Below are positions 1,641 through 60,739 of a stretch of 64,000 nucleotides of DNA, one piece after another (position 1 is the first letter of the stretch; the number at the start of each line of letters is the position of its first letter). A program made the position numbers and the translations under genes. The DNA comes from Diabrotica undecimpunctata (lineage: Eukaryota; Arthropoda; Insecta; Coleoptera; Chrysomelidae): assembly GCF_040954645.1 (NCBI RefSeq), contig NC_092811.1, positions 122,409,411 to 122,473,410 on the forward strand. Direction: 5' to 3'. The notes below the pieces were generated by a model that was given only the letters and a program-made list of their open reading frames with translations, had not been told where the DNA came from and ran no database searches.

Positions 1641-4600
1641 ATGGAAAAACTTGAAGAAAAGAATAGGAAGCTCAAATTTTTAAGAAAAACTGCTTTAAAT
1701 GATATTCAGTTAATTTTCGATTTAGGTTTTAAGGCCCTTTCAGACGTTTCTATTCGCCCTTTATTTAAAATTAGACTGGAAGAATTAGATTCGATTCGCG
1801 AAGAGTTCTTAAAACATCACACTAATATTATTAGTAATATTCTTTCTGTACCAGACGCGGATACGAGGGTTGAAGAAAATGTTCGGGAATTATTTTTGGA
1901 ACAATTTTATAAAATAAAACTATTTAGTGCGGAATTATCTGAGCCACAATTTGAAACTCCAGAACCGTTTAGATCGGTAGTAGTTCCACAATCAAATATT
2001 CGCTTGCCTAAAATAGAGCTGCCTAAATTTAAGGGTGATTTTAAGGAGTTTAGTTCGTTTTTAGATTTATATAATTCGGTTGTACATAATAACGCAGGCC
2101 TAGCAGACGTAGAAAAGTTTAAGTATTTGAAAGGATGTTTAGAAGGGACTCCACTTAGTTTGATTCGTAATTTGTCAATAAATAGCGATAATTATCAAAT
2201 TGCTTACGATCTAATTGTTAAACGCTACACAAATGTTCGTCGTTGTGCGACCGCGCATTGGGATGCGATCTTGGGCGTACAGAAAATATCGGTAGTTAAT
2301 TCGAAAAATCTGGCTAAATTAGTAGATACGTTTTTAGAAAATTTAGCCGCATTGAAAACATTAGGTCTTCCGACAGAACATTGGGATTTTATTATGTTTA
2401 ATTTACTTTTGTCGAAATTAGACGCGGATTCAGTAAAGTTATTTGAGTTAGAAAATAAATCGAATAAAATCCCGTCATTTCAAAAATTGGTAGAGTTTAT
2501 TGAAACTCAGTACATTGCTTACGATAATTTGAATAGTAGCTTAAGTGAATCTAAGAAATCGTCGAGGGCTCCAACTTATACGGAGCCAAAGTGTAATTAT
2601 AAACATTCCTATGAGTCAAGGCATAATAGTAGTTCATCCTTTGTTACAAATTCGTCGTCAATATGTTGTGCTTTATGTAAACAAAGTCATTTTCTTAACC
2701 ATTGCTCGTTGTTTTTGAAAAAATCTCCAAAAGAAAGATACCAATTTTGTAAAGAATCTTCCTCGTGTTTTAGGTGTCTTAATCAGGCTAATCATTCTGT
2801 CAAGTCGTGTCCAAAGGCCTTTAAATGTAGTAAATGTAATAGTCACCTTCATAATAGTTTGTTGCACTTTGATAGAAATGGTTCCAATAGTCAGTCGTCC
2901 ATAGAAAATACTAATAATCCAGGGGCATCGGGAGTCGAACAAAATTCGCCTGAAATATCACATTGTGCTGCTAGTTTTATAGGGAAGAAAAACGAGACAA
3001 AAAAGGAAATTTTGCTCGGTACCGTTTTAGTTCACGCGATTGATAGTAAGGGGTGTAAACAGCCCTTGAGATGTCTGCTAGATTCAGGTTCAATGAGTTC
3101 GTTCATTAGTCGTAAAGCTGCCAGTAGATTAGGTTGGCCAAAAACTCCTTGTTCATTTGAAGTTAACGGACTCAATTCGATGCAAACGAAACTGAATCAA
3201 GGTCAAATAAGTTTTTCTATCCAACCTCGTCATCAGGAGTCTCCGGTGTTTCACTTGGAGGCTATTATTACAGATCGGGTTTGCTCGGATTTGCCGAGCA
3301 CCAAAATTGACATATCGACGTGGAATTATATTAAAAATTTGAAGTTAGCCGATCCCGAATTTAACTGTAGTCAATCTATAGATTTGTTAATTGGTTGTAG
3401 CATATTTTCGAAGGTGTTGTTAGAAGGTAAAATTGAAGGTAAAGCGGGACAACCAGATGCCCTAAATACCGTTTTTGGTTATATTTTGTTAGGACCTACT
3501 AGCACACCTAACCTTTCGTCGACTTCGCTTGTTTGTCTTTCAAATATTGAAGACCCACTAAATTCTTCGTTAACGAAATTTTGGGAACTGGAAAACGTAC
3601 CGGAAAAGCCAGTTTCAGAACCAGAAGACGTTCTGTGTGAGAACATTTATCTGGAAACGCATAATCGGGACGTCTCGGGTAAATATGTTGTATCTTTGCC
3701 TTTTCGTGAATCGCCGCCTTGTTTGCAAGATAGCTATGATATTGCTTTAAATAGATTGCTATCATTAGAACGACGCTTATCTCGTCAACCAAGTTTGAAA
3801 AAAGAATATTCTTTTCATATGCAGGAGTATCTTGATTTAGGTCATATGCAGTTAGTCTCTAATGCCGAAAAGAAAAGGGGAAAGTATTATATTCCACATC
3901 ATTGCGTTGTGAAACCAGATAGTGTTTCAAGTAAAATTCGAGTTGTATATAATGCGTCTCAGAAAAGTCCCAGTCGCGGTAAATCTTTGAACGACTATTT
4001 ACTGGTCGGTCCTAAGCTGCAACAGAACATAGTCTCGCTGTTGTTGAATTTTAGACTTAATCGTTTTGCGCTGTGTGCGGACATTCGTCAGATGTATCGT
4101 AATATTTTAGTCGCTCCTGAACACACGGACTATCAACGCGTGTTATGGAGATTTTCTAGCGCTGAGGAAATTCAGGAATATCGTTTATTAACCGTTACTT
4201 TTGGAATAGTATCTTCGCCGTATCTCGCTTTAAGAACTCTCCAACAATTAGCATTAGACGAAGGCTCTCGTTTTCCTAACGCCGTCTCGCTTATTCGTCA
4301 TGCTTCGTATATTGATGATTTTGTTTTTGGTGCTTCGACTCTCGAAGAAGCACAAACTTTAGTTGACGAATTAGTCGCTTTGTTAAAGTTAGGAGGCTTT
4401 GAATTACGGAAATGGTGTTCGAATGAATCCAAATTGTTGTCGCAATTTCCTGAATCCCATATTAATCCTCACTCCATTAATTTTGATCCAGAAGCAAATG
4501 GTCCTTCATTAAAAATCCTTGGTTTGAAGTGGATTGCACAGTCCGACGTCTTTCAATTTTCAGTCAAATTGCAAGACGTTCCTTGTACCAAAAGATCGTT

Positions 4601-6833
4601 TTTGTCCGAATTAGCTCGAATTTATGATCCTTGTGGTTACTTAACACCTATTACCTTTTTCATTAAACATTTAATCCAACAACTTTGGGCAACCGGTCTT
4701 AAATGGGATGATCGTCCTCCTTCGGAAATAATTCGTGTATGGGAGCAATATAAGAGCGAACTATCTCTTATTTCACAGTTCAAAATTCCTCGTTTTTTGA
4801 ATATTTCCTCATGTCCCATCTTAGAGCTTCATGGATTTGCCGATGCTAGTGAAAAGGGATATGCTTGTGTCGTTTATATTCGTAGTATTGATACTCGTAA
4901 CCTAGTTCAAGTTAATTTACTGTGTGCCAAATCGAAAGTAGCTCCTATAAAACAGATTACTATACCTCGATTAGAATTGTTAGCTGCTGTTCATTTGGTA
5001 AAACTTATGTCGTTTGTGTTAGAGTCGTGGAAGCATATAATATTTCAAAATGTGTATGCTTGGTTAGATTCTCAAATCGTATTGCACTGGATTAAAAGCT
5101 CCCACTCGAGATTCAAAACTTTCGTCGCAAATCGCATTTCGTATATCCAGTCCCATAGTCAAAATTATTCTTGGCATTATATCGAATCTCGAAATAATGC
5201 AGCCGATGCGCCTTCGCGAGGCATGCTACCGGCCGCTTTTCTATCAAAATTAGACTGGTTAACAGGTCCTTCGTTTTTGTATAATATTCCATTAATTTTT
5301 CCAGAGGTTCCTCCCTCATTGCAGGAAAAATCCTCTTTGGAAGAGATAAAGAAAGCTTTAGTGTTTGTTTCCACTCGTGAGGAACATTTTCTGTCTTGTT
5401 TGTTGAAAAATAAATCGTCTTTTACCTCGATCCAAAGAATTTTGGCTTTTATGTTGCGATTCGCGCACAACTCTCGTTATAAAAGGTCGAAACGGTCAGG
5501 ACCCTTGACTTTCGTAGAATTAGAAGACTCGTTGATTATTCTTGTCAGATTTACACAAGAAAAGTATTTTGAAGAACATCTTCAATCAAATTCTTTTCCA
5601 AAACCATTTCGTAAGTTGGGAGTATTTTTAGATGATAGTACTCAGTGTTTAAGAGTAGGTGGTCGTCTATCTCAGTCTTCGTTATCGTATGAAGCAAAAC
5701 ACCCGTTTTTGTTACCAAAAAAATCTCGCCTTACTACTCTTCTAGTTCGTCATTATCATGAGAAGTATTTACATGCTGGATTTAAGAGTACTCAGTTTTT
5801 GGTTAGTCAAAGGTTTTGGATAATGTCTTCTAAACAAGCCGTTAATTCGGTATTGTCCAAATGTATTAGATGTTGGAAACAATCTCCTAAAAACTTACAA
5901 CCCCCTATGGGTAATTTGCCTAAATTTCGTCTCGGTGCCATTAAACCCTTTTCGATTTGTGGGTTAGATTATGGTGGACCGTTTTCGATAACCATGTCTC
6001 GTTACAGGGGAGTTAGAACTCAAAAGGCCTATTTGTGTCTATTTGTATGTTGTGCTACAAAGGCTTTACATCTTGAATTAGCTAGTGATTTGACCGCGGA
6101 AGCCTTTTTGGCCGCTTTACAACGTTTTATCGCTCGGAGAGGTCGAGTATCGCAAGTGTTTTGTGATAATGGCACTAATTTTCATAGTGCTTATCGACAG
6201 CTTAGTAGCTTCATGGAGAGCGCTCTCGATAAAGAAAATATTAAGTTTTCATTTGCTCCTCCTGCTGCTCCACATTTTGGTGGTATTTATGAACGGGGAA
6301 TTCGTTCTGTAAAGGAACATATTGTTCGTATAGTCGGGGCTCAAATTTTGACCTACGAAGAATTTTATACCGTTTTAACTTTAATTGAATCGGTCTTAAA
6401 CTCACGCCCTCTTACCCCATTAACTAACGATGTTGAAGATCTCAATGCGTTGACCCCAGGACATTTCCTGACTCTTGAACCCTTGACCTCTTTGTCTGTG
6501 CCTGATTTTTCGGAGGTATCCTTCAATCGTTTGTCCAGATGGCAGTTGTTACAACGCATCCATAGAGATTTTTGGGCTCGATGGCGAAAGGAATATTTGC
6601 ACACCTTGCAACAAAAGTCCAAATGGTTAGATCCTGGCTTTGTACCTAAAATCGGTGCCTTAGTTGTTTTAAAGGAGGATAATTTGGCTCCGTGTAAATG
6701 GCCTCTCGCGCGTCTTGTTGAATTGCATGAGGGTAAAGACGGTGTAGCTCGAGTGGCTACCGTGCGTACGATCACCGGAACCTTAAAACGGCCTCTTGTT
6801 CGAATCTGTCCCTTGCCGATAGATGAAGATTAG
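1641..6833 (+). CDS. BEL/Pao Gag-Pol polyprotein, intact
   Basis: This 1730-residue polyprotein would encode the capsid and all enzymes for retrotransposition. Domains in order: a Gag-like DUF1759 region (about 120-300, with RLPKIELPKFKGD); three Cys/His knuckles (CALC at 343, CFRC at 376, CSKC at 396); an aspartic protease with LLDSGS (479-484); reverse transcriptase from about 765, with catalytic YIDD at 890-893; an RNase H/A17-type region around 1060-1200 (HGFADAS, WLDSQ, ADAPSRG); integrase with an H-H-C-C zinc segment (about 1371-1411) and a D-D-E core at D1443 (GLDYGGPF), D1509 (CDNGTNF) and E1551 (YERGIRSVK); and a C-terminal DUF5641 region (about 1600-1725). The start is the first ATG of the open frame, 314 bp after the LTR. 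No frameshift or stop interrupts it and all inspected catalytic residues are present, so the copy could be active. Confidence 0.97.
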   Translation: MEKLEEKNRKLKFLRKTALNDIQLIFDLGFKALSDVSIRPLFKIRLEELDSIREEFLKHHTNIISNILSVPDADTRVEENVRELFLEQFYKIKLFSAELSEPQFETPEPFRSVVVPQSNIRLPKIELPKFKGDFKEFSSFLDLYNSVVHNNAGLADVEKFKYLKGCLEGTPLSLIRNLSINSDNYQIAYDLIVKRYTNVRRCATAHWDAILGVQKISVVNSKNLAKLVDTFLENLAALKTLGLPTEHWDFIMFNLLLSKLDADSVKLFELENKSNKIPSFQKLVEFIETQYIAYDNLNSSLSESKKSSRAPTYTEPKCNYKHSYESRHNSSSSFVTNSSSICCALCKQSHFLNHCSLFLKKSPKERYQFCKESSSCFRCLNQANHSVKSCPKAFKCSKCNSHLHNSLLHFDRNGSNSQSSIENTNNPGASGVEQNSPEISHCAASFIGKKNETKKEILLGTVLVHAIDSKGCKQPLRCLLDSGSMSSFISRKAASRLGWPKTPCSFEVNGLNSMQTKLNQGQISFSIQPRHQESPVFHLEAIITDRVCSDLPSTKIDISTWNYIKNLKLADPEFNCSQSIDLLIGCSIFSKVLLEGKIEGKAGQPDALNTVFGYILLGPTSTPNLSSTSLVCLSNIEDPLNSSLTKFWELENVPEKPVSEPEDVLCENIYLETHNRDVSGKYVVSLPFRESPPCLQDSYDIALNRLLSLERRLSRQPSLKKEYSFHMQEYLDLGHMQLVSNAEKKRGKYYIPHHCVVKPDSVSSKIRVVYNASQKSPSRGKSLNDYLLVGPKLQQNIVSLLLNFRLNRFALCADIRQMYRNILVAPEHTDYQRVLWRFSSAEEIQEYRLLTVTFGIVSSPYLALRTLQQLALDEGSRFPNAVSLIRHASYIDDFVFGASTLEEAQTLVDELVALLKLGGFELRKWCSNESKLLSQFPESHINPHSINFDPEANGPSLKILGLKWIAQSDVFQFSVKLQDVPCTKRSFLSELARIYDPCGYLTPITFFIKHLIQQLWATGLKWDDRPPSEIIRVWEQYKSELSLISQFKIPRFLNISSCPILELHGFADASEKGYACVVYIRSIDTRNLVQVNLLCAKSKVAPIKQITIPRLELLAAVHLVKLMSFVLESWKHIIFQNVYAWLDSQIVLHWIKSSHSRFKTFVANRISYIQSHSQNYSWHYIESRNNAADAPSRGMLPAAFLSKLDWLTGPSFLYNIPLIFPEVPPSLQEKSSLEEIKKALVFVSTREEHFLSCLLKNKSSFTSIQRILAFMLRFAHNSRYKRSKRSGPLTFVELEDSLIILVRFTQEKYFEEHLQSNSFPKPFRKLGVFLDDSTQCLRVGGRLSQSSLSYEAKHPFLLPKKSRLTTLLVRHYHEKYLHAGFKSTQFLVSQRFWIMSSKQAVNSVLSKCIRCWKQSPKNLQPPMGNLPKFRLGAIKPFSICGLDYGGPFSITMSRYRGVRTQKAYLCLFVCCATKALHLELASDLTAEAFLAALQRFIARRGRVSQVFCDNGTNFHSAYRQLSSFMESALDKENIKFSFAPPAAPHFGGIYERGIRSVKEHIVRIVGAQILTYEEFYTVLTLIESVLNSRPLTPLTNDVEDLNALTPGHFLTLEPLTSLSVPDFSEVSFNRLSRWQLLQRIHRDFWARWRKEYLHTLQQKSKWLDPGFVPKIGALVVLKEDNLAPCKWPLARLVELHEGKDGVARVATVRTITGTLKRPLVRICPLPIDED

Positions 6834-8612: not shown

Positions 8613-8628
8613 ATAAATAAATGTCCTT

Positions 8629-8690
8629 CTGTGTATCCTCCTTATACGTATTTTGCCCTAATAGGGCTCTTCAGAGACGGCTATTCACAG
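8629..8690 (-). ncRNA. Degenerate hammerhead ribozyme motif
   Basis: Read on the minus strand, a CTGAAGA core is followed by stem II (GCCCT-ATT-AGGGC), then AAAA in place of the required GAAA, then ATACGTATA. The distal stem I pair CTGTG/CACAG is intact. Loss of the core G makes self-cleavage unlikely. Confidence 0.6.
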
Positions 8691-9037
8691 TCGCTCTAAA
8701 CGTGAAAATAAATCTTTTCTGTCTTAGGAAGCAACTCTAACATGGCTTCGTATAGACGCAAATAGCGACATCTGATATTAAAATCTGTAAACTAATTTAC
8801 GAAACCAAATTCAGATTTATGCTTTAATCTGTGCCTTCTAAGAATTTCAAGGCAAAACAGACGTTGATAAAGATGTTATTAGAGACATGGGGAATCTAAA
8901 AATTACATTCCACAACATATCTCCTCAACTAAGCAAAAATCCTTAACGAATTGGTTTCTAGTACTCGTACAGAGTATATCGGAATAAAAGGATAAAAGGA
9001 AAAGGACAGTCAAGATTTGATTTCATGTACAGTGCGT

Positions 9038-9099
9038 CTGTGTATGCGCCTTATACGTACTTCGCCCTAATAGAGCTCTTCAGAGACGGTTATTCACAG
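9038..9099 (-). ncRNA. Degenerate hammerhead ribozyme motif
   Basis: On the minus strand this reads CTGAAGA, stem II GCTCT-ATT-AGGGC (one mismatch), then GAAG instead of GAAA, then TACGTATA. The proximal stem I can form CGTCT/AGGCG and the distal one CTGTG/CACAG. It lies 409 bp from the previous motif in the same orientation. Confidence 0.6.
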
Positions 9100-9180
9100 T
9101 CGCTCTAAACGTGAAAGTAAATCTTTTCTGTCTTAGGAAGCAACTCTAACATGGCTTCATATAGACGCAAATGGCGACAT

Positions 9181-13101: not shown

Positions 13102-14409
13102 CTAAATACCTAATTCTGTTTCGCTGTCGCTATCCTCTTCAAGATTAATAACAATTGGTTTAATTATGTGATTCAAAGTAACATATGAATTTTCTACGTT
13201 CATTATATGGCGTACTGAATTTTACCAACTTTCTGGGGAGATATCATCAACACATTTCCTTATTAATTCGACTACACTACCACTTAAACTCGGAGAAACA
13301 TTTTGTGACCTAACATTTGACTTTAGTTGGTGCCACATATAATCTATGGGATTAAATAAACAATAGTAGGGCGGAAGCCGTAACACTGTATGTCCCATGT
13401 CCTCGGCCAATGCGTCACAAACATATACTTTTTTAATAGAAAATGATTTTAACACTTCTAACAGTTCATTTTTTAAATAACTTTCTTCAAAATATATATC
13501 GTTTTCTAACAGGTAGTTTGGAATTTCAATTTTCGTGTTATTTGCACTTGGAGACTTATGTAATTGACGACTGTGGTAACTTGCATTGTTCATTACTATC
13601 ACACTATTTTGAGGAAGGTTAGGTATAAGACGATTCTTAAACCATTGCTCAAAAAGCTCTGCCGTTGTATCCTCATGGTAGTCCACGCAGGAGTCTTTAA
13701 TGTTCTTTGCAGAAAGCCATAAGGCATTTGGGACCCAACCATTTTCTGATCCTGCATGTAAAATTGTGATTCTTTTCCCTTTGTTTGATGGAGCTTTTGT
13801 TTGACACCTTTTGGAAGAATCGGACCATCCTTTGGATGGTGTTTCATGAGTGTCAAACCATGTCTCGTCCAGATAAATTATTGGTCGATCTTCTGTACGG
13901 TACTTTCTTATGGAAGTTATATATTCAGTACGCCACTTTTGTAAACGATGGGACTCCATAAGCACTTGCCTTTTGTCAATTGTACGATATCTGAAGCCCA
14001 TTTTAGACAAAATCCTCCAAAGACTAATGCGGCTACAGTTTATTTGTGTATCATCATTAGTAAGCCGTTGTTTTAAAGCATCTAATGTAGGTATCCGTTG
14101 CTCTTCGTACATTGTGTAAATTTTTCGTCTTATTAAGTCCTTATCACTTTCGTCAATACATTTGGTAGAACCGGCATCCTTACGCTTCCTTCTTGACTTA
14201 ATGGGATTTGATGTAATTCTTTTCACTGTGGTTAGAGGTATTTTCGTTAAATCAGATATTTCACTGGCAGCAGTATTAGCAGTAAGTCCTGTTGTAAGTA
14301 AAGAACTATATATTGTTTTTACGATTTCTCTAGCGTCAGCAGATAAATGCTTTTTCTTTGCTGGAACACTGGAAGAAGCACCATCAATGTTTTTCCACGG
14401 ACGCCACAT
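13102..14409 (-). pseudogene. DD82E-type transposase, copy A (active site altered, premature stop)
   Basis: The frame 14409-13222 encodes 395 residues of an IS630/Tc1/mariner-superfamily transposase. An N-terminal helix-turn-helix-like region (about 20-140) is followed by the catalytic domain with YLDETW (D181), VMNNASYHS (N274 where the family has Asp) and NPIDYMW (D356 where relatives have Glu). About 81 residues separate the last two positions, against about 34-41 in ordinary Tc1/mariner. After SPESW a TAA stop interrupts the frame. Downstream codons continue in frame to a natural stop at 13102-13104 and match the acidic C-terminal tail of copy B, so this stop is premature. The missing second Asp alone should abolish catalysis. 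The assignment to the Sailor/DD82E group rests on spacing. Confidence 0.85.
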
Positions 14410-15650: not shown

Positions 15651-15709
15651 CTGTGAAAGCCGTTCTGAAAAGGCCTATTAGGCCGAAATACGTATAAGCG
15701 GATGCACAG
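15651..15709 (+). ncRNA. Hammerhead ribozyme motif, one core change
   Basis: It has the same stems as the 15359-15417 motif but on the plus strand. The core reads CTGAAAA, so the conserved G at position 8 is A and cleavage is expected to be lost. Confidence 0.7.
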
Positions 15710-16465: not shown

Positions 16466-17841
16466 TTAATCAAATTCCATTTTAGATTCACTGCTTTCTT
16501 CAGAATCTAAGGAATCTTCAACTCCAATGTTAATTATTACCGGTTCCAGCATTGCATCAGTCATATTATCCAAATACCACATTTTATTTTCTTCCTTGTG
16601 AGCATGACTAACAGCATTTTTCCAATTTTCTGGAGTTACTTTTGATAAGGAATGTTCTAATAATTGTTGTAAGTCTTCTAATTTAAAAGTTTTGTTGTTG
16701 CGTCCCACTTCACCCTTTACTTGAGACCATATATTTTCTATCGGATTCAGATCACAGTGGTGTGGGGGAAAACGTAAAATAATTACATCACGGTTTAATG
16801 CCATTTCATCAATTATATATTTTTTATAAGCTGCTTTATGTTGCCTTACAATAGGTAATAATTCCTTTTTTGTCGAATTCCCTTGTACTCAATTGCGTGT
16901 TTATCCAACCATTCGATTATCTCTCCTTTTTTCCATGCCGTTGTTGGCAATTTTTCTGCTAGTCTTGAATGGTAACTAGCATTATCCATGACTATGACAG
17001 AATTTTTTGGAATTAAATCCAACATTTGCTCAAAATATTCTTCAAAAACGCCAGCAGTCATTTCCTCGTGGTAATCTTTGGTTGATTTTGAGGCAAAACT
17101 TAATAATCCACCATTGACAAAACCGTATTCGTTTCCAATATGGGTTATTATGAGTCTGCGTCCTTTTCCAACGGGAATATTGTTTATTCCAGTAGATACA
17201 CCTTCGATGAATGCCTGACGGGAACTTTTCACATTTGTATCAACCCATGGATATGGTATAGTATGACCTTCATTTAGCCAAGTCTCGTCCAAATAAAAAA
17301 TTGTTTTCCCTTCTTCTCGGTACTTTTTAATAGTTCTTAGATAATCTCGTCTCCAACATACAATGTAATCTTTTTCAATTAAAACGGATTTTCTTCTATT
17401 CTTTTGCCAACGAAATCCCATCTCTCTCAATAGTCCCCATAATTTCTTATTGCTTATGATTGGTAACTCTTCGTTTTTTCTAATTAATGTTTGGATTTTG
17501 TCCAATGTTGGAAATTCTTTGTTAAAAAAAAAATGAGTGGACGCTGCGTCTTATCATGTTTTTATGTATTTCTTCAATTTCCAAGGGTTTACTCCCTCCA
17601 CTCTTCTTGGGAGCTGAAACAGTTCCTTTTAGGAATCTTTTCTTTCTTTTAGGAATCTATAAATTGTTGCTTCTCCAACCCCTGTCATATTTGAACACAT
17701 GTTAACGATTTCACGAACATTACTTAAAGGGCGTTGATGTACAAGTGCTTCGTGTACATTTAATATTATATTTTTCTCTCTTAGACTGAAGGCGCCTTTA
17801 AAACTACACTTAACCGGGATAAAACCTGTTGTCGACGTCAT
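16466..17841 (-). pseudogene. DD82E-type transposase, copy B (frameshifted, full triad)
   Basis: Three frame segments on the minus strand make one transposase. The N-terminal part (17841 to about 17630) starts MTSTTGFIPVKC and carries the helix-turn-helix-like MTGVGEATIYRFL. The middle (17505-16850) has LREMGFRWQKN, FYLDETW and VIVMDNASYHS. The C-terminal part (about 16880-16466) has PPHHCDLNPIENIW and an acidic tail ending KMEFD. The full D-D-E triad is therefore visible, with about 81 residues between the second Asp and the Glu. Frame is lost near 17630-17650, where a short TTTTAGGAATCT stretch is duplicated, and near 16880 by an apparent single-base deletion. The copy is dead but its triad is better preserved than in copy A. 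Confidence 0.88.
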
Positions 17842-52890: not shown

Positions 52891-53212
52891 TTTATGATTG
52901 AAAACAGAGAATTTTTATTGGAAGTCACGTTTTTTAACGGTTTTTCGTGAATAACCCTTTGATAGAAAAAGTATGCAAAACAAAAATGAAGCTTAAGGAA
53001 GCTTTAAGAAGCTAAAAGAAGAATGAGATTCATTTTTACAAGATATTCTAGATACAATACAAGTGATGTATGGTCGGCGAAAGACATTTTTTTTGCGAAT
53101 ATTTGGATCAATGTATTCAACGTTAAATTATAAAAAAAAAGGTTGATTTTTCGAGGGTAATGATGCAAAAGTTATCTCATTATCATTTTTGAACTTTTAG
53201 ATTACTTTGAGG
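52891..53212. other. No recognisable gene
   Basis: AT-rich spacer between the LINE and the hammerhead-family repeat. Confidence 0.5.
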
Positions 53213-54420
53213 CCTCTTCAGAACGGCTTTCACAGTCGCTCTGAACGTGAAAATAAATCTTTTCTGTCTTAGGAAGCAACTCTAACACGGCTTCGTATAG
53301 ACGCAAATAGCGACATCTGATATTAAAATCCGTAAACTAATTTTCGAAACCAAATTCAGAACTTTGCTTTAATCTGTGCCTTCTAAGAATTGCAAGGCAA
53401 AACAAACGTTGATAAAGATGTTATTAGAGACATGGGGAATCTAAAAATTGCATTCCACAACATATCTCCTCAACTAAGCAAAATTCTTAGCGAATTGGTT
53501 TCTAGTACTCGTACAGAGTATATCGAAATAAAAAGGAAAAGACAGTTAAGATTTGATTTTTTTTCTTTTTTCTTTAAAAAGAAAAAATATTTTCCTTTGT
53601 ATTCCGATATACTCTGTACGAGTACTAGAAACCAATTCGCTAGGAATTTTGCTTAGTTGAGGAGATATGTTGTGGAATAAAATTTTTAATTACTATTTAA
53701 ATGGGAATAAGCCACAATTAAAGGTTAAAATACGTTTATTGGCGTTTCAATTTCCACTTCGGAAATCGTTCTCAAAATACAAACATTAGTAAATTGAACA
53801 GTAAATTTTTCCCTCATAATTTACTATGGAATCACTAACAGGAGAATTTTACTGTCATCATGGCATGTGTTTGTCTTTTTAAAGACGAATTACATGCTAT
53901 GATCTTTTCTGACGAATATTCTCAAGTTAAGGTTGATTTCATGTAATCGAATGGTCGTCTTATATCTGTATCTTATAAGTAAAGTCGTCCCAGGAACGCA
54001 ACTCAACAATATTGGCAATATCATTTTAAAGTCGTCTACTTTAAAATGTATAATGTATGTCTGAATTGTCAATATAGATGAGTCAGATAAAATTAAATTA
54101 TTAGAAGAATTTTTCACTAAGTAACAAAAAACAAAATTTGTTTAATTTACTAATGTTTGTATTTTGAGAACGATTTCCGAAGTGGAAATTGAAACGTCAA
54201 TAAACGTATTTTAACCTTTAATTGTGGCTTATTCCCATTTAAATAGTAATTAATTTAAAATGCCACAAGAAAATAGCTTCAGAACAATGCAATTTTTAGA
54301 TTCCCCATGTCTCTAATAACATCTTTGTCAACGTCTGTTTTGCCTTGCAAGTCTTAGAAGGCACAGATTAAAGCAAAGTTCTGAATTTGGTTTCGAAAAT
54401 TAGTTTACGGATTTTAATGA
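53213..54420. mobile_element. Hammerhead-family inverted repeat, split by a palindromic element
   Basis: The left arm (53213-53570) begins inside the hammerhead (only the CTGAAGAG half, minus strand, remains) and runs through the family body (CTGTCTTAGGAAGCAACTC, GACATGGGGAATCTAAAAAT). A T-rich spacer and an inverted arm (53600-53685, then 54285-54420) follow. The arms around 53480-53540 and 53600-53680 form a long hairpin. A 568-bp element interrupts the right arm. No target duplication was recognised, and the left end is truncated within the ribozyme. Confidence 0.8.
53686..54253. mobile_element. 568-bp element with 115-bp inverted repeats
   Basis: Arms 53686-53800 and 54139-54253 are nearly perfect inverted repeats (TTAATTACTATTTAAATGGG at the outer ends). 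Inside each arm, GATTTCCGAAGTGGAAAT can form a stem followed by TGAAACG, a layout reminiscent of hammerhead-like Penelope termini, but the CTGANGA box is not canonical. It is non-coding and inserted within the hammerhead-family repeat. Confidence 0.7.
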
Positions 54421-58440: not shown

Positions 58441-59929
58441 GGTCGAAAATCATATTAATACAAAAAGAATTAAACAAAACAAAATAATGTGACACATTGG
58501 ATTAATTGGATTAATTATTCATATAATTTCTTATATTGTCTGGCACTGTATTCCTTCTCATTGTCTGGCGCTGAAATCGTATCAACAAATCGTTGTACGA
58601 CAGATTTTTCGACGACAGCATGCCATACTTTCCGTACCATTCAACTGAACGTGTGTGGAAGGAACTACATCACCACACACGTTAAGATTATCATTCAAAC
58701 GCTCGTATTTTTTTCTATTTTATGTCCATTCATTTATACACTGTATTTTCTTCTAATGTCTTCACTTCTCTCGATCTCTCAGCGTATTTCCTGTAACTCT
58801 TCTCAGTACACTCATCTCTGCCGTTTCCAGTAGGCTTTGCATCGTGGCTAAGACTGGTCTTATTTTTTAGGCATATGTCATTATTGGTCTTACACTGGCT
58901 TTATAAATTCTTGACTTCATCTCAGCATTAATGTGTTTGTTTCGCCATATAGTGTTATTAAGACATCCTGCCAGTCTATTTGATCTCTCACTTCTTTGTT
59001 CAAGTCTCCATAGCTGGACAGTGTAATTCCCAGATATTTTATTTCCATTACTTGTTCAATACTGATGCCATCAATTTCTATTTTACATCTGGTTGATTCT
59101 TTGCTGACTACTATGGTTTTAGATTTCGGAGATGAGATTGTCTTATTAAATAATTTTGCTCTTATATTAAATCTGTGGTCCAGTCTTTGCAGACTATGTT
59201 CATCTTGGGCTATCAATATTGCGTCGCCTGCGTAACAGAGTATTTTTATTTCTTTGTTTCCCATACTGTATCCTCTTCGTTTGTTAACCGTTTTGATGAT
59301 TTCATTCATGATTACATTGAAGAGCATGGGGCTCAGTGAAACCCCTTGTCTTATTCCGCTGCCTATTTCTGTAGGTTCTGTAAGTTATCTATCTATTCTG
59401 ACTTCCATTTTGTCGTTTTGGTAGATGTTTTCGATAGTTTTTATAAAATTAACTTTTCTATTATACAGAAGATGGATTACATCTTTGAATCTTACTCTGT
59501 CAAACGCTTTCTTTAGGTCAATCAGACACAGAAACGCTGGTCTATTATACTTTAGTGATTTCTCAGTAATTTGTTTTATAACGAATATTGCATCTGTACA
59601 CGATCTTCCACTATGAAAACTCTGTCGTTCATCTGCTAAACTTATCCTCTGATTTATTATCACTTGTAAAATTTTAGTTGTAAGTTTTAACGTAGTATTT
59701 AACAAGTTTATACCTCTATAGTTTTTTGGATGTTTTTTATCTTCTTTTTTGAATAGTAGAATTAGTTCGCTTGTTCTCCATTCTTTCGGTATTTTATTGT
59801 TTTTTATAATTTTATTAATTAATATTGTTAATTGTTCTGTCATTGCTGCTCTCCCGTCTTTACCTGCTGCTTTTCTGTTCTTCAGGTTTTCAAGTATTTT
59901 CCGAACTTCCTGTACATTTATATTAAGTT

Positions 59930-60511
59930 AATAAAATTAAAGACAGTCAAGATTTCCTTTCACGCAAAAATAGTCTATGTATCTGTTGATACGTATTTCG
60001 CTTTAATAAAGCTCATCAGAACAGTTATTCATAGGCTTTCTCAACGTGAAAATTAATCTTTTCCTGTCTTTGTGAAGCAACGATAAAATGGCTTCGAAAC
60101 GGACGTAATAGCGACATCTGATATTAAATCCGTAAAATAGTTTCGAAACACAATTCAGATAACTGCCTTAATCTGAACCTTCTATAAATGCAAGGTATAA
60201 CAGACGCTGATAAAGATGTTAATAGAGACATGGGGAATCTAAAATTTGCATTCCACGACATGTCTCCTCAGCTAAGCAGAAATCGTTAGCGAATTGGTTT
60301 CTTGTACTCATACAGAGTAGATCCGAATAAAAATAAAATTAAAGACAGTCAAGATTTAGATAGATTAGCTAGAGATTAGATAGATTAGATTAGATCAGTT
60401 AGATTCCCCATGTCTCTATTAACATCTTTATCAGCGTCTGTTATACCTTGCATTTATAGAAGGTTCAGATTAAGGCAGTTATCTGAATTGTGTTTCGAAA
60501 CTATTTTACGG
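59930..60511. mobile_element. Hammerhead-family element with 14-bp target duplication
   Basis: The 582-bp insertion is flanked by perfect ATTTATATTAAGTT (59916-59929, 60512-60525). The left arm (to about 60345) carries a minus-strand hammerhead with a canonical core and the family body. A short AGATTAGATAG-type repeat at 60355-60400 separates it from an inverted partial unit (60402-60511). It has no coding capacity. The clean duplication within a known LINE shows that this arrangement moved as a unit. Confidence 0.9.
59975..60034 (-). ncRNA. Hammerhead ribozyme motif, canonical core
   Basis: On the minus strand: CTATG, internal loop AATAA, CTGTT, core CTGATGA, stem II GCTTT-ATT-AAAGC, GAAA, stem III ATAC/GTAT without loop, cleavage triplet ATC, then AACAG, ATA and CATAG. 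All invariant core bases are present. The predicted cut lies between positions 59988 and 59987. Stem sequences differ from the 15.4-kb motif but pair equally well. This is the best candidate for an active ribozyme in the window. Confidence 0.88.
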
Positions 60512-60739
60512 ATTTATATTAAGTTCTTCATTTGTGGTAATTTCTGGTGTTTCCGGTTCAGCGTCGTTTATTCTTCCTCTGCATAGAGCTTTTTTAGGTA
60601 GTCAATCCACGTATCCTCTTCTATGTATTTTGGTTCTATTAGTTCCTTTACCTCCGTTCTTTGGCCTCTTATGAAGCGCCATATTTCCTTTGCAGACCTT
60701 AAATCCTCATGATATGTTCCCTATAAATATTAAATATTT

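Follow-up and report, generated by a model that had tools for sequence, protein, structure and literature searches.

How does a short, non-coding DNA element with a hammerhead ribozyme motif enter a chromosome? The question is raised by a 582-bp insertion (59930-60511) in a LINE in the genome of the beetle Diabrotica undecimpunctata (1.74 Gb). It lies in a stretch of 64,000 nucleotides, referred to here as the window, and was described in an original prediction, made from the letters alone, as a mobile unit with a type I hammerhead. For retrozymes in animals, the route into chromosomes, the enzyme, and the use of a circle as template are described as conjecture so far (PMC7229834).

Structure of the insertion

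The positions of the main features are given in Table 1. The 14-bp sequence ATTTATATTAAGTT is present on both sides of the insertion, and joining the flanks with a single copy of it gives an uninterrupted LINE frame, confirming the predicted insertion into a LINE with a 14-bp target duplication. Alignment to a second copy of the LINE in the window skips the target stretch. The view that the element is non-coding also held, with no frame of at least 150 aa overlapping the focal insertion and no frame longer than 54 codons in the repeated unit, the GC content of which is 0.35.

Table 1. Features of the focal insertion and its older relatives in the window. U, position in the repeating unit, numbered from the hammerhead cleavage site; P1 and P2, sites on the unit at U55-64 and U247-273.
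Feature	Position	Strand	Remarks
LINE reverse transcriptase frame (RVT_1)	59385..59843	-	domain match
Target-site duplication, left copy, 14 bp	59916..59929	.	flank sequence
Long arm, 428 nt: U33-402 then U1-58	59930..60357	-	outer 3' end 59930 = P1
26-nt repeat, second-lap copy	59930..59955	-	marks one 402-nt circuit plus 26 nt
Type I hammerhead ribozyme (predicted from sequence)	59972..60037	-	expected cleavage between 59988 and 59987
U247-264, inside P2 (end site of opposite arm)	60126..60143	-	
26-nt repeat, first-lap copy, U33-58, contains P1	60332..60357	-	
Linker, 41 nt, AGATTAG-like, outside the unit	60358..60398	.	meeting point of the two arms
Short inverted arm, 113 nt, U148-260	60399..60511	+	outer 3' end at P2
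Target-site duplication, right copy, 14 bp	60512..60525	.	flank sequence
Older copy A, single arm of 1.4 units	8628..9180	-	outer end at neither P1 nor P2
Older copy B, divergent pair of arms ending at P1 and P2	15318..15960	.	10-bp duplication TTAACAGAAA outside
Older copy C, divergent pieces	53210..54418	.	element with inverted ends inserted at ~53689-54285

Within the insertion, a direct repeat of 26 nt (at 59930 and 60332) has a spacing of 402, which sets the repeating unit at 402 nt. There is also a perfect inverted repeat of 118 nt (60125-60242 / 60399-60516). The 26-nt repeat and the inverted piece together identify the insertion as two divergent arms, with the hammerhead sense directed outward on both sides. 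The original prediction had noticed neither these repeats nor the three older copies. At its outer end, the short arm matches the target over 5 nt (microhomology).

Elsewhere in the window, an uninterrupted 1730-aa frame for a Bel/Pao polyprotein (1641-6833, plus strand) has 86% identity to a D. virgifera protein over the part searched. Two DDE_3 transposase frames are found on the minus strand (13222-14409 and 16846-17505), the second of which scores just below the Pfam cut-off.

The hammerhead motif

The core described in the original prediction is present on the minus strand, where CTGATGA, GCTTTATTAAAGC, GAA, and ATACGTATC occur in order, and its type I topology is borne out, with a stem I of AACAG/CTGTT. 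Stem III is formed from two pairs and an ACGU loop; two pairs with a tetraloop are described as similar to hammerheads of invertebrates (PMC7229834). The core string alone amounts to no more than chance. The pattern CTGATGA...GAAA has 4 matches against 1.71 expected, with 4 or more in 9 of 100 shuffles, and CTGATGAG has 1 match against 1.27 expected. A relaxed scan, tolerating core changes and requiring all three stems, gave 4 matches in the window, all of them within copies of the retrozyme element; the same scan of 100 Markov controls gave 10 matches in total and a maximum of 1 per control. Two of the four window matches have one core change (G8 to A at 15665; G12 to A at 8674).

The covariance-model test suggested for the hammerhead was not passed. 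Rfam reported nothing at the gathering threshold for the whole window and nothing at E ≤ 1 for 1.6 kb, and no Rfam hammerhead family was found in older copy B at E ≤ 10. With 91 bases, the scores were 17.8 bits for RF00008 (cut-off 48.5, E 0.096) and 16.1 bits for RF03152 (cut-off 56.3, E 0.95). We attribute these low scores to the short stem III, and with values so far under the cut-offs, Rfam was set aside as proof of a hammerhead. Since Rfam reaches just 17.8 bits, the case relies on 20%-diverged relatives with compensatory changes, and comparison with older units identifies compensatory pairs in stems I and II. Folded by itself as a linear molecule, the hammerhead stretch prefers another fold (z -1.24, 24 of 200 shuffles as good), and for this reason hammerhead activity is not argued from folding. 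A scan of viral contigs with the exact hammerhead pattern found 0.

Relatives in the genome

The focal element has at least 499 matches in the genome; a first look gave 929 candidates, of which 39 were scored. The locus set consists of 38 fetched loci (every distinct place among the matches listed) and the focal locus, 39 in all and thus as many as were scored, and is biased to copies with a full 428-nt match. Two arms are found at 28 loci and one arm at 11, the latter including L027, which was scored in this way though its array extends past the fetched stretch. The search for other copies with flanking direct repeats, proposed with the original prediction, found target duplications of 8-15 bp at 36 of the 39 loci examined, bearing out the claim of a mobile unit.

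An older subfamily gave 2893 first-look candidates, of which 40 were scored. Its copies in the window differ in form: older copy A has two hammerheads with one core change in each, and older copy C has P1-side and P2-side pieces with one end truncated. The inverted ends of the element that interrupts older copy C are roughly 115 bp long, as judged by eye.

Outer ends and target duplications

The 39 loci have 67 outer 3' ends, 38 at P1, 28 at P2, and 1 elsewhere (U96 at L016, a locus that has no duplication). P1 is paired with P2 at 27 of the 28 two-arm loci, and P1/P1 or P2/P2 pairs are found at 0 of 28; the probability of 27 mixed pairs is 4e-9, calculated from pooled frequencies and assuming independence. 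Among the one-arm loci, the outer end is at P1 in 10 and P2 in 1. None of the outer 3' ends inspected carries a poly-A tail; L017 has an A run on its 5' side.

By hit coordinates, the 40 loci of the older subfamily (including older copy B) comprise 19 with two arms and 21 with one. The two-arm loci have ends at P1/P2 (15), at P2/P2 (1), or with one end elsewhere (3), and the one-arm loci at P2 (13), P1 (7), or elsewhere (1), with the P2 count inflated because the older-subfamily query ends at P2. The P1/P2 rule was confirmed by sequence at L047 (11-bp duplication), L048 (14 bp), and older copy B (10 bp).

The duplications at the 36 loci are of 12 bp (17 loci), 13 bp (10), 14 bp (3), 15 bp (1), and 8-10 bp (5), a tally in which those of L011 and L031, sited in AT repeats, are uncertain. 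Among the 39 loci examined, L016, L019, and L027 have no target duplication. Where two-arm loci have a duplication (27 loci), its length is 12 bp (15), 13 bp (8), 14 bp (3), or 15 bp (1). When these loci are set with their P1 arms on the right, base +2 right of the duplication is T in 27 of 27 and base -2 left of it is A in 24 of 27, which suggests a symmetric nick rule on both strands, 5' of NT(T). As a separate observation, five of the nine one-arm duplications (L020, L030, L031, L041, and L046) are 8-10 bp long, compared with 12-15 bp in two-arm insertions.

Inner ends and the template

At 27 divergent junctions, the 54 inner starts are distributed uniformly around the unit (chi-square p 0.38). 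Where the arms join, they either overlap by 2-12 nt (51 nt in L040) or are separated by an insert of 0-22 nt (119 nt in L025). The 119-nt insert (L025, 2174-2292) is made up of imperfect TATTAACATA repeats and resembles the AGATTAG linker of the focal insertion; it was perhaps produced by slippage while joining. Segments have a median length of 2.09 units and a maximum of 15.55, and of the 70 aligned segments, 65 extend across the hammerhead cleavage site. These results argue for a template that is longer than the cleaved linear monomer, or closed.

Sequence variants within the arrays give information about this template. At sites read in three or more units there are 193 variant rows, in which the variant is present in one unit (147), in every unit of a locus (5), or in some units (41, of which 16 are one deletion). 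T311C occurs in 16/16 units of L039 and in 7/7 of L040, in both arms; A317C is in 2/2 units of L041 and 4/4 of L042; T191G is in 4/4 units of L011, both arms included; and A17G is in 4/4 units of L046. Differences per 100 bases average 0.43 inside an arm, 0.51 from arm to arm at one locus, and 0.57 from locus to locus; these values are so close that the one-template signal is small and is carried by lineage variants. Opposite arms of one locus share 6 variants, compared with a permutation mean of 0.45, and 0 of 20000 permutations reach 6; arms were shuffled between loci among the 27 fetched two-arm loci, excluding end regions, U284, and deletions. The arm-shared variants fit one template per insertion, and gene conversion could be an alternative source of the sharing. 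Partial variants at L010, L017, L021, L022, L032, L034, L037, L039, L042, and L044 oppose a single clean monomer, and these ten loci need conversion, duplication, or a mixed template. In L009, L027, and L045, unit variants return at regular intervals of several units, a pattern that resembles later duplication of blocks in the arrays.

Predicted fold of the closed unit

When closed, the 402-nt unit is predicted to form a rod of -100.5 kcal/mol (z -3.6), an energy reached by 0 of 100 shuffles. In this prediction, a single central junction contains U50-70 and U246-256 as unpaired stretches, and P1 and P2 would both border it. All of the exact P1 ends (27/27) are located in the unpaired U50-70, and the exact P2 ends are located in the unpaired U246-256 (3/27) or in the foot of the predicted hairpin that starts at U257 (24/27).

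Two older units, with 79% identity to the unit, have a similar predicted rod. Mapped onto them, the rod has 9 and 10 compensatory pairs (0-2 in slid controls) and 17 broken pairs in each, numbers to be read in the light of two properties: a fold derived from a single sequence favours itself, and the older units are 93% identical to each other and so are not independent tests. The idea that the unit is an old dimer was ruled out, as local alignment of its halves identified just an 11-nt match elsewhere and ATTTTAT common to the surroundings of P1 and P2.

A candidate helper enzyme

GIY-YIG domains have at least 73 matches in the genome, from the best 150 of 6686 candidates scored, with open frames of up to 605 aa. 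One of these, L049, is part of the 605-aa frame and has a C-terminal GIY-YIG match of 27.6 bits (cut-off 22.6), with a weak match to reverse transcriptase upstream (17.2 bits, cut-off 29.6). Among the 49 relatives of L049 are D. undecimpunctata proteins with lengths of 575 and 610 aa, and GIY-YIG is absent from their precomputed domains. Frames of this type would make a Penelope-like enzyme the candidate helper. Separately, an outward pair of GIY-YIG matches 1.2 kb apart was observed at G000:C8:115021017-115022650, as a two-arm Penelope-like insertion would give.

Comparison with known elements

Its sequence anatomy places the beetle element among the metazoan non-LTR retrozymes: a 402-nt, low-GC, non-coding tandem unit carries a type I hammerhead motif in which stems I-III are all present. 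Retrozymes of this kind are described as short, non-coding, low-GC tandem units with a type I hammerhead, target duplications of more than 4 bp, and circular RNA as the proposed intermediate (PMC7229834). Their units are of about 170-400 nt, so that 402 nt is at the upper edge, and they are described as tandem copies, whereas the beetle insertions have two divergent arms and two start sites used once each; a word search of the main text found neither 'inverted' nor 'head-to-head' (PMC7229834). The same source leaves the priming of retrozymes open and calls Penelope-like elements strong candidates (Cervera and de la Pena 2020, PMC7229834).

Likenesses to Penelope-like elements are found in the ends of the insertions. 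The Anolis Penelope-like enzyme is reported to cleave and extend both strands, from two internal start sites, with a preference for AT-rich ATT sites and a predicted dimer (PMC11167929). In the Anolis assay, the start site was the same for both strands in vitro, and a strict division of sites is thus not shown in that system (PMC11167929). Adineta Penelope elements are described as head-to-head inverted repeats, with a tail on one of them and short duplications of 8-10 bp or none (PMC3846280). Unlike Penelope-like elements, the beetle unit has no ORF and its template is probably a small circle; its start sites are ~200 nt (half a circle) apart compared with ~30-40, and its duplications are mostly 12-14 bp compared with 8-10 bp. 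Judged from the insertion ends, the mode of integration resembles that of Penelope-like elements. The unit itself is no member of them, with no ORF combining reverse transcriptase and GIY-YIG in the focal insertion or the unit. The original prediction had likened the element both to retrozymes and to Penelope terminal repeats; the first comparison stands, for a mobile hammerhead element with duplications, and the second appears wrong, given the lack of coding frames in the insertion and unit.

Plant LTR retrozymes (PMC4918200) are likewise non-autonomous, bear hammerheads, and are thought to move via circular RNA, but have a type III hammerhead, an LTR, a primer-binding site, and 4-bp duplications (PMC7761336, PMC11722881). 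The beetle element has a type I hammerhead and duplications of mostly 12-14 bp, and so is no LTR retrozyme. It also differs from LINEs and SINEs, which have one fixed 3' end and a truncated 5' end, in having two fixed 3' ends on one unit. The kind of element is already known. In the open-licence literature, covered mostly by title and abstract, we recognised no retrozymes with dual-start, two-arm integration, with inverted arms, or with two start sites half a circle apart and each used once, no hammerhead elements of this beetle, and no variant evidence for a template common to both arms.

Alternative explanations

Several other routes to such insertions have been considered. Uncleaved linear multimeric transcripts, in place of circles, could be the templates for twin-primed reverse transcription, with a Penelope-like enzyme or a different one. 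Read-through transcription of arrays could occur, the 41 of 193 variant rows that look mosaic would be accommodated, and for Anolis in vitro, unprocessed RNA is reported as the main substrate, with insertion unaffected by hammerhead mutants (PMC11167929). However, lineage variants are present in every unit of four loci (29/29), which points to a one-unit bottleneck; the strict P1/P2 pairing is left without a reason, and compensatory changes are retained in the rod fold of the closed unit. We regard linear multimers as unlikely. Ordinary LINE machinery combined with twin priming is a further candidate, given that the element is inserted in a LINE, and in LINEs target duplications of similar size and 5' inversions occur. 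In LINE twin priming, synthesis begins at the 3' end of the RNA and the internal sites vary, whereas both outer ends of the beetle insertions are fixed sites on one unit and those inspected have no poly-A tail, making this route a distinctly improbable one.

If the unit were a terminal repeat or decayed remnant of a Penelope-like element, the type I hammerhead and the tandem and inverted layout would be accounted for, and Penelope-like genes are found in the same genome. Such a descent would not explain why the unit forms a closed repeat of 402 nt, is retained as a closed rod in the predicted fold, and has such short frames; we give this origin very little weight. The least credible proposal is satellite DNA spreading through DNA recombination or circular DNA. 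Tandem 402-bp units of up to 15.55 laps and later block duplications in arrays are what would be expected of a satellite, but this reading is largely refuted by the target duplications at dispersed sites (36/39 loci), and the outer 3' ends are fixed and directed outward while the inner ends are scattered.

A model for integration

In the explanation that we consider probable, the beetle element belongs to the metazoan non-LTR retrozymes, and its circular RNA undergoes reverse transcription primed by both strands of the target, with one start site for each, carried out probably by a Penelope-like RT-endonuclease. The model starts from the observed end sites, their pairing, the duplications, the scattered inner ends, the multi-lap arms, and the arm-shared variants. 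Transcripts would self-cleave at the hammerhead, and we infer that the cleaved RNA is closed into a 402-nt circle with the predicted rod-like fold. A Penelope-like RT-endonuclease, probably as a dimer, would then nick both strands of the target ~12 bp apart, each 5' of NT(T); this stagger and motif are deduced from the target duplications. The two new 3' ends of the target would each prime reverse transcription, the one from P1 and the other from P2 as internal start sites, and both cDNAs would travel round the circle for ~0.3 to 15.6 laps. Their ends would be joined in the middle of the insertion via microhomology or short inserts, and the product would be two outward arms whose outer ends are fixed and whose inner ends are scattered, together with a 12-14 bp duplication. 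We lean slightly towards a more specific form of this model, in which a single RNA circle, produced by the hammerhead, is copied simultaneously by the two halves of a Penelope-like dimer, each with its own site and target strand. For such simultaneous copying, and with the same slight leaning, we suggest the name two-fork rolling-circle target-primed reverse transcription.

The insertions record start sites, strands, laps, and joining, which makes the mechanism testable with one RNA circle, a protein, and a target. They would supply a natural record of Penelope-type integration, in which there are two start sites and each is used once.
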